Positions 99 to 64,000 of a stretch of 64,000 bases of DNA are shown here, one piece after another; position 1 is the first letter of the stretch; every line of letters begins with the position of its first letter. A program made the translations under genes and the position numbers. Source of the stretch: Nocardioides speluncae (lineage in GTDB: Bacteria; Actinomycetota; Actinomycetes; Propionibacteriales; Nocardioidaceae). The notes beneath the pieces were generated by a model. The model was not told the DNA's origin. It did no database searches and saw nothing but the letters and a program-made list of their open reading frames with translations. The DNA lies in NCBI RefSeq assembly GCF_003121585.1, contig NZ_QEOO01000031.1, positions 1-64,000 of the forward strand. The letters run 5' to 3'.

Positions 99-265
99 GC
101 TAGTGGGTATCTCCGGAAGTTCGTCGGGGTCTGAGCGGCCAGGGCACGCACATCGCTGCGTTGTCGTCGGTCGACGGGCCACCGGCCCGCCTCCCTCCGA
201 CGCCTTGCGCTGCACGCACCCTGACCACTCAGACCCACGAAGAACTTCCGGAGATGCCCACTAGC
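99..265. repeat. Long imperfect palindrome (MITE-like)
   Basis: The outer arms (about 99-150 and 212-265) are near-perfect reverse complements: ctagtggg, then atctccggaagttc, a one-base slip, gggtctgag and ggycaggg. The stretch between them pairs weakly around a G/C-rich centre at 171-192. The four bases ctgg lie immediately outside both ends (96-99 and 265-268), as a short target-site duplication would. No reading frame inside looks like a transposase. The stop codon of the neighbouring TIGR03086 gene (261-263) lies in the right arm. The centre is shared with the palindrome at 62783-62944. A non-autonomous element or a structured terminator are both possible. Confidence 0.6.
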
Positions 266-4487: not shown

Positions 4488-5645
4488 ATGTCCGGCACCC
4501 GCGCTCCGCTGTTCACCCGGGCGTTCGTGCTGCTGGGGGTCGCCGACCTGGCCTACTTCACCTCGGTCGGCGTCGCGATCTACACCCTGCCGCTCTATAC
4601 GACCGGCCCGGTCGGCTCGAGCGAGGCGGGCGCGGGACTGGCCTTCGGCGCGTTCGGGATCACCGCACTGGTGTGCCGCCCGTTCGCGGGTCGCGCCTCC
4701 GACACCCGTGGCCGGCTGCCGCTCATGATCTTTGGCGCGCTGCTCGCCGCGGCCGGGATGCTGCTGTTTCCGTACGTCGACTCGCTGGCCGCCGTGATCG
4801 CGATCCGGCTGGTGCAGGGCGTCGCGGAGGCGGCGTTCTTCGTGGCCGGGTTCGCCTTGCTGGCCGACCTGGCGCCGCCGGAGCGGATGGGGGAGGCCCT
4901 CAGCTACAACTCGCTCGGGCTCTACCTCGGCATCGCCTTCGGCCCGCCGCTCGGCGAGGTCCTGCTGGAGCAGTGGGGGTACGACGTCGCGTGGATCGGC
5001 GCCGCGGGGCTTGCCGCACTCGCCGCAGCCCTGACCTGCCTGATCCGCGAGCCCGCGCGGGCGGACGGCGGCGACGGGCACGGCCGGCTGATCCATCGCC
5101 CGGGGATCGCGCCGTCGCTGGGCTTCTTCGCCTCGCTCGCGGCGATCAGCGGGTTCCTGGCCTTCGCGTCGCTCTACTCCGAGGAGGTGGAGCTGAGCAA
5201 CACCAGCCTCGCGCTCTTCCTGTACGGCGCTGTCGTGGTGTTCTGCCGGATCGCCTTTGCCCGCGTCCCCGACCGGCTGCCGTCCCTGCAGCTGGGCGCC
5301 GCGTCCCTGCTCGCGATCGCGGCCGGCCTTACCGTGATCGCCCTGTGGCAGACACCGGCTGGTCTGCTGTCGGGGGTCGTCGTACTCGCGGTCGGCGTGA
5401 CCTTCTCGACCCCGGCCTTCTTCGCGGCGATCTTCGCCACCGCCACCCCAAGCGAACGGGGCGCCGCAGCCGGCACCGCGAGCGCCTTCATCGACCTCGG
5501 CCTCGGCTTCGGCCCGATCGCGCTCGGCCTGGTCGCCGACGCGCGGGGCATCCCATGGGCGTTCGGCGTCGGCGCAGGGATCGCCGTACTCGGCGCGATC
5601 TGGACGCTGCGGCTGGCCCGTGCGGAGTCGGTCGCTACGGCGTGA
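4488..5645 (+). CDS. MFS transporter
   Basis: This 385-residue major facilitator superfamily permease has about 12 hydrophobic segments and a typical loop 2-3 motif, GRASDTRGRLPLM (GXXXDRXGRR-like). The substrate is unknown; drug or sugar efflux is common for this architecture. The ATG at 4488 lies 7 bases after a cataCCT-type -10, so the mRNA may be leaderless. It is divergent from rtcB and convergent with the TetR gene, whose 3' end it overlaps by 11 bases. Confidence 0.8.
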   Translation: MSGTRAPLFTRAFVLLGVADLAYFTSVGVAIYTLPLYTTGPVGSSEAGAGLAFGAFGITALVCRPFAGRASDTRGRLPLMIFGALLAAAGMLLFPYVDSLAAVIAIRLVQGVAEAAFFVAGFALLADLAPPERMGEALSYNSLGLYLGIAFGPPLGEVLLEQWGYDVAWIGAAGLAALAAALTCLIREPARADGGDGHGRLIHRPGIAPSLGFFASLAAISGFLAFASLYSEEVELSNTSLALFLYGAVVVFCRIAFARVPDRLPSLQLGAASLLAIAAGLTVIALWQTPAGLLSGVVVLAVGVTFSTPAFFAAIFATATPSERGAAAGTASAFIDLGLGFGPIALGLVADARGIPWAFGVGAGIAVLGAIWTLRLARAESVATA

Positions 5646-62336: not shown

Positions 62337-62777
62337 ATGACGCTCAAGCTGCACCACCTGCGTCCTGCCCCCGGTGCCAAGACCGCCAAGACCCGCGTGG
62401 GTCGCGGTGAGGCCTCGAAGGGTAAGACCGCTGGTCGAGGCACCAAGGGCACCAAGGCCCGCTACCAGGTTCCGGTCGCCTTCGAGGGTGGCCAGATGCC
62501 GATCCACATGCGGCTGCCCAAGCTGAAGGGCTTCAAGAACCCCTTCAAGGTGGAGTTCCAGGTCGTGAACCTCGACCGGATCAACGAGCTCTTCCCCGAG
62601 GGTGGCCCCGTGACCGTGGACGACCTGGTCGCCAAGGGCGCGGTCCGCAAGGGCCAGCCGGTCAAGGTGCTCGGTCAGGGCGAGATCTCGGTGGCGGTCC
62701 AGGTGAGCGCGAACGCGTTCTCCGCTTCCGCCAAGGAGAAGATCGAGGCCGCCGGCGGCTCCACCGCCACGGCCTGA
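62337..62777 (+). CDS. rplO: 50S ribosomal protein uL15
   Basis: uL15 is a late-assembly large-subunit protein. Its 146 residues include [24 protein letters not shown] and end SGSTATA-like GGSTATA. The 316-base gap to secY contains a long palindrome that may regulate secY expression. Confidence 0.97.
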
Positions 62778-62782
62778 GCTTT

Positions 62783-62944
62783 CGGCCGTGTCTCCCCATC
62801 CCTCGCCCGCTGCGCGGCGTTTCGGACTCGATCTGGCTGCGGCGGCGCCGCTCGACGGGCCATCCGGCCCGCCTTCGCGCCGCCGCCTTGCCAGATCGGC
62901 CCGAAACACCGCTCGCGACGGCGATGGACGGGGAGACACGGCCG
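62783..62944. repeat. Long imperfect palindrome between rplO and secY
   Basis: The outer arms (62783 onward and ending at 62944) begin cggccgtgtctcccc on both strands, continue with gtttcgg and gatctgg blocks, and meet at a core tcgacgggccatccggcccg (62852-62871). The core and the flank cgccttgc match those of the palindrome at 99-265. In mRNA this would be a strong hairpin of about 160 bases, 5 bases after the rplO stop, so it may attenuate transcription into secY. Confidence 0.75.
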
Positions 62945-63093
62945 ACCCGTGAGCAACGAAGTTGGCGCGGTCGGCACTCGCCGGCCGCGCCCTTCGTTGG
63001 TCGGAAATGGGCGCTCTGCTGCTCCCTGTTAGGCTTCCCCGGTCCTCGCCATGACGTGGCGAGTACCTGCCCCTGCTTGAGAAAGAGGACCAC
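62945..63093 (+). promoter_or_regulatory. secY leader region
   Basis: The 149 bases between the palindrome and secY hold a short imperfect repeat of ttcgttg (from gagcaacgaagttggc and cgcccttcgttgg, which form a hairpin of about 12 bp with the intervening ccggccgc) and a ribosome binding site GAAAGAGG before GTG. A separate promoter could lie here; the strongest candidate -10 is TAGGCT near 63031. Confidence 0.45.
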
Positions 63094-64000
63094 GTGCTAA
63101 GCGCGTTCGCCAACGCCTTCCGGACACCGGACCTGCGGCGCAAGCTGCTGTTCGTCCTCGCGATCATTGTGATCTTCCGGCTCGGCTCCCAGGTTCCTGC
63201 TCCCGGTGTCGACGCACGCAACGTGCAGAACTGCGTGGACAACGTCGGGAACGAGGGCGTCTACGGCCTGATCAACCTCTTCTCCGGCGGCGCACTGCTC
63301 CAGCTGACGATCTTCGCGCTGGGCATCATGCCGTACATCACCGCCAGCATCATCCTGCAGCTGCTCGTCGTGGTCATCCCGCGGCTCGAAGCGCTGAAGA
63401 AGGAGGGCCAGGCGGGCCAGACCAAGATCACCCAGTACACCCGCTACCTGACGCTGGCGCTCGCCGTACTCCAGGCGACCGGCATCGTGGCGCTGGCGCG
63501 CTCCAAGCAGCTGATCCAGGGCTGCCAGGAGGACCTGCTGCACTCCGACTCGACGAACACCTTCCTGGTCATGGTGGTCACCATGACCGCCGGCACCGCG
63601 GTGATCATGTACATGGGCGAGCAGATCACCGAGCGTGGCGTCGGCAACGGTATGTCGATCCTGATCTTCTGCCAGGTCGTCGCGACCTTCCCGGCCGCCA
63701 TGTGGAGCGTCCAGAAGACCCAGGGCTGGTGGATCTTCGGCCTGGTGATGGCGATCGGTCTGGTGATCGTGGCCGCGGTCATCTTCATCGAGCAGGCGCA
63801 GCGCCGGATCCCGGTCCAGTACGCCCGGCGGATGGTCGGACGCAAGATGTTCGGCGGCAGCTCGACGTACATCCCGCTCAAGGTGAACCAGGCCGGCATC
63901 ATCCCGGTCATCTTCGCTTCGTCGCTGCTCTACCTGCCGGCGATGGCGGTCCAGTTCAACCAGGGCAGCACCTCGCCCTGGATCCGCTGGATCAACAACT
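63094..64000 (+). CDS. secY: Preprotein translocase subunit SecY (partial)
   Basis: SecY forms the protein-conducting channel of the Sec translocon. The first 302 codons of the usual 430 or so are present; the window edge cuts the rest. The N-terminus VLSAFANAFRTPDLRRKLLFVLAIIVIFRLGSQVPAPG and the plug region (LFSGGALLQLTIFALGIMPYITASIILQLL) are typical. GTG at 63094 follows GAAAGAGG. Its leader holds the long palindrome shared with 99-265. Confidence 0.97.
   Translation, partial: MLSAFANAFRTPDLRRKLLFVLAIIVIFRLGSQVPAPGVDARNVQNCVDNVGNEGVYGLINLFSGGALLQLTIFALGIMPYITASIILQLLVVVIPRLEALKKEGQAGQTKITQYTRYLTLALAVLQATGIVALARSKQLIQGCQEDLLHSDSTNTFLVMVVTMTAGTAVIMYMGEQITERGVGNGMSILIFCQVVATFPAAMWSVQKTQGWWIFGLVMAIGLVIVAAVIFIEQAQRRIPVQYARRMVGRKMFGGSSTYIPLKVNQAGIIPVIFASSLLYLPAMAVQFNQGSTSPWIRWINN

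Follow-up and report, generated by a model that had tools for sequence, protein, structure and literature searches.

Many MITEs share only their ends with their IS, and among described elements it is the MITEs of the IS5 and IS1380 families that come closest in form to the palindrome that we analyze here. Like them, it is short and non-coding, carries IS-like terminal inverted repeats (TIRs), is flanked by TA or TNA, and occurs in many intergenic copies; unlike them, it is nearly all one hairpin, has an asymmetric conserved center that is found with the ends of two IS families, resembles an IS at its ends only, and is oriented with respect to replication. Left and right ends can be told apart in Tn7, with its TnsE, and in the IS families with a transposase that binds the beta clamp, whereas the ends of our palindrome match and only its center is clearly asymmetric. 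What it has in common with those elements is an orientation bias relative to replication, as described for them in PMC5371812. The same source reports that elements of the IS200/IS605 group (IS608 and ISDra2 being examples) favor the lagging-strand template, and the orientation of our palindrome also follows replication, which is a likeness in behavior and not in membership: its ends and target duplications are of the DDE type, and no TnpA was found in the six genomes searched. REP/BIME sequences and the REPINs that go with RAYT are likewise high-copy extragenic palindromes, and REPs with GTAG or CGTC tags have been reported nested in longer palindromes (PMC3733652), but REPs measure 20–40 bp, as opposed to the ~160 bp seen here, and our palindrome has no GTAG-tagged unit and no Y1 transposase accompanying it in any of the same six genomes.

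We consider it probable that the element is a non-autonomous, MITE-like palindrome with IS5 or IS1380 ends that is mobilized in trans and given its orientation by the replication fork. One would not expect an element whose two ends match to sense the direction of replication, and yet ~90 copies at different sites nearly always do, which makes the family a natural experiment, in high-GC Actinomycetota, on the ways in which forks may orient transposition or reshape palindromes. In the open-access literature that we searched, we found neither this family nor any replication-polarized MITE described; one string match, in a paper on the Caulobacter helicase loader, was to primer sequences and was discarded as unrelated.

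The palindrome and its family

The window, by which we mean the whole 64,000-nt stretch that was analyzed, contains two copies of the element, one of which lies between two genes that we take, by recognition, to be rplO (uL15) and secY. The features of the window are listed by position and strand.

99–265, plus strand: second copy in the window, of the other cluster and with GTGG... ends; its core is at 171–191
62337–62777, plus strand: coding sequence of rplO (uL15), with 4 nt between its stop codon and the element
62782–62945, plus strand: whole palindromic element (hairpin), the secY copy; its core reads on the plus strand, and as a query it matches itself and six more copies
62784–62795, plus strand: left TIR GGCCGTGTCTCC, an IS5-type end (IS form GGGCGTGTCTCC)
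62837–62845, plus strand: left shoulder GCTGCGGCG, degenerate relative to the conserved GCTGCGTTG
62852–62873, plus strand: polar core TCGACGGGCC-AT-CCGGCCCGCC, the apex hairpin
62884–62891, plus strand: right shoulder CGCCTTGC, kept in most copies
62932–62943, minus strand: right TIR, reading GGAGACACGGCC on the plus strand
62964–62998, plus strand: terminator-like hairpin GGCGCGGTCGGC...GCCGGCCGCGCC followed by TTCGTT, downstream of the element
63026–63038, plus strand: CTGTTAGGCTTCC, a conserved promoter-like motif for secY, present as TGTTA[GC]GCT in 25 of 25 relatives
63094–64000, plus strand: secY, which continues past the end of the window

The secY copy forms a hairpin of 164 nt with outer arms of 26 nt that are 92% complementary, and the RNA fold predicted for positions 62775–62950 has a minimum free energy of -130.2 kcal/mol (z score of -11.1), with none of 200 shuffled sequences folding as well. 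Its flanks, TTTC and GACC, show no visible target duplication, and a search of Rfam returned five weak matches, none of them near the gathering threshold. The core pattern TCGACGGGCC-N-GGCCCGCC matches the window twice, at 62852–62873 and at 171–191, compared with 0.01 matches expected. From this pair of palindromes the sequence-only reading had proposed a repeat family with a single core, noting a one-base indel between the two cores, a common right flank, and differing outer arms. All three details held: the core at 62852–62873 has one extra base relative to that at 171–191, CGCCTTGC at 62884–62891 recurs in the 171 copy, and the outer arms differ because the two copies belong to different clusters and have different ends. 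The family itself proved larger than that reading implied, with 92 exact cores across the source genome (49 forward and 43 reverse) and none for the reversed-pattern control.

Most copies are intergenic and ~160 bp long, with a near-invariant asymmetric center. When the arms were extended automatically, 51 of the 92 copies measured 155–175 bp, the procedure running too far or stopping short in others; seven of the 92, the secY copy not among them, overlap an ORF according to crude ORF calls. Alignment of 90 copies, the other two running off contig ends, separated them into two clusters of 54 and 36; mismatches included, the inner part is well conserved in cluster 0 and nearly invariant in cluster 1. 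Read in order, the center consists of the left shoulder GCTGCGTTG, TCGAC, the apex hairpin, and the right shoulder. By comparison, the ~20 bp at the outside of each arm vary between copies while remaining complementary within a copy: at the outermost 20 pairs, 94.6% of pairings in cluster 0 and 92.9% in cluster 1 are Watson–Crick, compared with 45.2% and 76.9%, respectively, when the left arm of one copy is set against the right arm of another. Arm changes are two-sided in 456 cases and one-sided in 31 in cluster 0 (92 versus 25 in cluster 1), and asymmetries in the outer arms are seen in either phase with respect to the center (4 versus 4 at one pair).

Several variants of this plan were seen. 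Searches with a pattern that required the shoulders showed constant shoulders and an apex that varies with compensation in Streptomyces and certain other genomes. Streptomyces sp. JH14 (G303) has a second hairpin type, for example at C1:42503–42555, with the same shoulders and the apex GAACGCCCGAATAC...GTATGAGGACGCC. Within G278, which has more copies than any other relative, the usual shoulders are missing from one of the 19 exact copies (at 1392785) and from one of two degenerate copies, and a core or near-core sits in long palindromes with other shoulders (L240, ~1186; L251, ~1137), a further variant of the element. Two mini-palindromes of ~60 nt in the source genome, at C45:133435–133497 (L313) and C23:15129–15188 (L314), lack the center but have ends of the IS1380 type flanked on either side by TNA; the center is also missing from very short palindromes with GTGGTCA ends, of the cluster-1 type, at L056 (~154) and L192 (~3988). 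At L228 (15459–15613), an inverted pair of cluster-1-like ends lies ~154 bp apart without an exact TCGACGGGCC core.

A similarity search with the whole secY copy found at least 41 places, with the best 40 of 178 candidates scored; among the matches listed, seven, including the secY copy itself, reach 87% or better over most of their length, the other six at 87–93%. Exact cores are present in one or more copies in 38 of the 294 family genomes searched, mostly in 1–5 copies each, with counts of 92 in the source genome, 19 in G278, 7 in G043, and 6 in G011, and related hairpins occur in other Nocardioidaceae and in Streptomyces. The matches in G043 are those found in Marmoricola endophyticus (G297), and the congeners G240, G206, and G125 have match positions in common with Nocardioides sp. 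Root1257, N. litoris, and N. baculatus; the source genome is thus probably that of a Nocardioides (Nocardioidaceae). Scanning all genomes for the core returned at least 111 stretches, most of which, by eye, are chance matches; those among the listed stretches that we judged by eye to be relatives are L060, L064, L065, L072, L073, L077, L097, L114, L120, L126, L130, L132, and L133. The secY copy had no relatives among plasmids and none among phages. With the 171 copy as the query, 11 Streptomyces plasmids matched over 44–57% of its length, and the shoulder pattern is present on three viral contigs (L309, L310, and L311). A repeated sequence of Planctomycetes bacterium Poly30 (L070, L076, L094, and L104) contains CCTTGCC and the exact core in other surroundings and is possibly an independent repeat family, and a hairpin CTGCGTTG...TCGACGGGCC...CGCCTTGCAG in a Thermoanaerobaculia MAG (L060, ~5185–5206) suggests that the design reaches beyond Actinomycetota. 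Two copies in the source genome, C11:427221 and C11:427382, follow each other directly, head to tail and at a spacing of 161 bp, and share the CTAG at their junction.

Ends, target sites, and element class

The end of the secY-copy subfamily (GGCCGTGTCTCC) is of the type found on an IS5-family element in G278, which reads GGTCGTGTCTCTTTAGT...ACTTAGGAGACACGCCC with TA on either side. The transposase gene of this element, the sole DUF4096 match in that genome, is split in two frames, of which the first ORF scores above the NCBIfam transpos_IS5_3 cut-off and the second matches the model below it. Four further IS5 copies were found on actinobacterial plasmids, three with CTAGGGYGTGTCTC at both ends and the fourth with a GGGCGTGTCTCC end at just one side. 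The assembly of the source genome contains no DUF4096 IS5 match, and thus no visible mobilizer for its IS5-ended copies.

The ends of a second subfamily, B, led to an IS within the source genome. The subfamily-B end pattern had 75 matches, compared with 13 for the reversed control, and revealed an end pair 1.6 kb apart that belongs to a complete-looking IS1380-family IS at C10:128163–129810 (L312, 1164–2811), 1648 bp long if the TGA at either side is counted, with the TIR GCCCTGATCCAC and a 459-aa transpos_IS1380 ORF above cut-off. At its extreme ends this IS matches some subfamily-B copies at all of 17 nt or at 17 of 18. Because internal matches to it are also numerous, albeit short (the best, in a copy of cluster 1, has 94% identity over 18 nt), it is the position of the matches at the ends, and not their score, that carries the argument for IS1380 ends. 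For the GTGG and GATGACC ends, no partner IS was found in the ~1.45 Mb examined (overlaps included) of 5.7 Mb. An origin of the element by internal deletion of an IS5 or IS1380 element was rejected, there being no extended homology to either beyond end matches of 12–18 nt and short internal ones.

Element boundaries could be set in 79 of the 90 aligned copies. Ten copies, all in cluster 0, have an identical TNA on both sides, as opposed to a mean of 2.5 under permutation, with none of 5000 permutations reaching 10; TA on both sides showed no excess over permutation in either cluster (7 versus 6.0 and 22 versus 22.6). By anatomy the element is a MITE, with TIRs in common with a full IS, a target duplication in cluster 0, a length within the 70–300 bp of such elements, and no transposase gene. 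Transposases of the IS5 or IS1380 type would presumably mobilize it in trans into TA or TNA targets, and its asymmetric center belongs to neither IS and is common to subfamilies with different ends. Finding one center between IS ends of two kinds suggests that a MITE can switch from one transposase to another.

Orientation relative to replication

The orientation of the element follows replication, the strand that reads GCGTTG...CGCCTTGC being the lagging-strand template. Nineteen contigs of the source genome have two or more copies, 77 in all, and 72 of these lie on the majority strand of their contig, compared with a mean of 52.9 and a maximum of 65 in 20,000 shuffles. All nine copies on the oriC contig obey the rule: the eight to the left of dnaA are on the minus strand and the single copy to the right is on the plus strand. 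This last copy counts among the five minority copies, in keeping with the rule; the other four lie on contigs C24, C31, C42, and C45, and one or more of them could mark the terminus. Copies with one mismatch at C8:107844 and C11:225027 run against the pattern of their own contig.

The same rule describes other genomes. In G278, on a contig of 6.09 Mb with dnaA at 4.90 Mb, all 19 exact cores follow it and both degenerate cores agree, with plus copies to the right of oriC, minus copies to the left, and switch points between 4.67 and 4.92 Mb and, near the antipode, between 1.67 and 1.99 Mb. Agreement was 15 of 15 for the shoulder pattern in eight other congeners, 10 of 11 in G043, and 14 of 18 in Streptomyces sp. 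JH14 (3 of 4 for the usual hairpin type and 11 of 14 for the second type), and 9 of 10 for core-only matches in single-contig genomes, the flanks of which were unchecked. In the draft genome of S. longwoodensis, orientations are mixed within contigs. The polarity counts leave out this genome, a G043 match without shoulders (642624) together with the C2 copies of G043, the C2 copy of G221, and all five matches in the draft G190, one of which, on the dnaA contig, agrees; they take dnaA as a proxy for oriC, use rounded lengths for some genomes, and are not all independent, in that congeners may share insertions by descent. When GC skew was used as a second polarity test, 20 of 31 contigs and 46 of 79 copies agreed, a weak signal drawn from short stretches.

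Transcription offers no comparable rule. At the 80 copies for which a crude gene caller gave usable neighbors (seven overlapping a called ORF and five without one neighbor were left out), the upstream and downstream genes both read in the direction of the element in 30 cases and both against it in 24, with 13 cases each of same then opposite and opposite then same, and this balance argues that orientation is not set by transcription.

The matching ends give a DDE transposase no obvious orientation cue, so the polarity calls for a contribution from the center, from a single-stranded state, or from a later process. Among candidate causes we would rank fork-coupled transposition first, inversion of the center by template switching second, and purging of copies through fork blockage third. 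Fork-coupled transposition takes first place because IS200/IS605, Tn7, and IS families with beta-clamp-binding transposases provide documented cases of replication-linked orientation (PMC5371812). As the most likely cause, transposition would act on, or insert into, the hairpin when it is exposed as single strand on the lagging-strand template, and orientation would thereby be kept from copy to copy. The palindromes that lack the center but have B-type ends and TNA point to a transposase with no need of the center, which somewhat weakens this proposal. A tentative extension, which we put forward with reserve, is that the center is an independent module read during replication as a single-stranded DNA hairpin on the lagging-strand template, one that would polarize otherwise symmetric transposons and would have been recruited between unrelated IS ends across Actinomycetota.

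A somewhat doubtful alternative is that insertion is random and that template switching at replication within the palindrome homogenizes the arms and inverts the center to the orientation that replication favors. A single known process would then cover both the compensated arms and the polarity: in yeast, template switching is reported to homogenize the arms of inverted repeats and to invert their spacers (PMC8604942), which is why we rank it second. The arms of our element are Watson–Crick within copies, two-sided changes far exceed one-sided ones, and the outer-arm asymmetries fall in both phases relative to the center. Its compensated, variable arms offer a clean case in which palindrome homogenization by this route could be put to the test. 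However, the rate of inversion would have to be strongly one-sided, the spacer inversions reported in PMC8604942 span a few bases compared with ~110 nt here, and the phase data fit ordinary new mutations too.

Fork-coupled transposition must also be weighed against loss after the event, in which insertion is random and wrong-way copies are purged through a center that hinders the fork from that side, as a polar fork barrier would. The near-complete polarity in G278, which flips at dnaA and near the antipode and is independent of gene direction, suits such a barrier, but exceptions are tolerated, and numbers that range from 0 to 92 exact cores among congeners indicate a dispensable site; we regard this explanation as unlikely. 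To our knowledge, no protein and no fork arrest is associated with this sequence.

Very unlikely, in our judgment, is a repeat of the REP type with a transposase like those of IS200/IS605 (RAYT) as its mobilizer, the center being a mobile unit nested in unrelated palindromes. Orientation by the lagging strand is typical of that mechanism (PMC5371812), and REPs nested in long palindromes have been described (PMC3733652), but the length of the unit and its tags are unlike those of REPs, and the ends and TNA duplications are of the DDE type. The ends consist of TA or TNA with GGGC, GCCC, or GTGG, as opposed to the GTAG or CGTC tag of REPs; on the opposite strand the core does have CGTC beside a small stem, and a CGTC-type unit may be nested within it. 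A search for Y1_Tnp (PF01797) was negative in all six genomes, including the one with 92 copies, and positive in 5 of 14 control genomes, which largely refutes a mobilizer of this kind.

The rplO–secY interval

The least credible explanation is that the element serves between rplO and secY and elsewhere as a regulatory terminator or mRNA-stability hairpin, for although its fold is very stable, its copies are mostly intergenic, and 26 of the 47 upstream genes that read in its direction end 1–2 nt inside its approximate boundary, at a terminal TAG or TGA, its orientation ignores transcription, it uses convergent and divergent gaps equally (13 versus 13), and it is absent from this interval in 25 of 25 relatives, 24 of which have a separate terminator-like hairpin there. 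Identification as an intrinsic terminator was likewise rejected, the orientation being untied to the upstream gene and the secY copy having no T tract in the sequence on its 3′ side.

None of the 25 congeners sampled has the core or the shoulders between rplO and secY (one of these intervals contains Ns). In all 25, TGTTA[GC]GCT lies ~65–138 nt upstream of secY, and in 24 of them a strong hairpin, defined as a 60-nt stretch that folds to -35 kcal/mol or better, is found upstream of the motif. The conservation of the motif points to a putative secY promoter. In the window, the order is the element, the terminator-like hairpin at 62964–62998, the motif at 63026–63038, and then secY. The sequence-only reading had set the element inside an essential operon and expected its hairpin to affect expression of secY. 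As far as can be judged from the sequence, rplO and secY do not share a single continuous message, and the expected effect lacks support: the element is separated from secY by the terminator-like hairpin and the conserved motif, the latter being kept in the 25 relatives that have no element. Since both features lie downstream of it, the element adds at most to the 3′ end of the rplO mRNA. Probably this copy inserted long ago at the 3′ end of rplO, ahead of both the terminator-like hairpin and the putative secY promoter, and has affected secY little.
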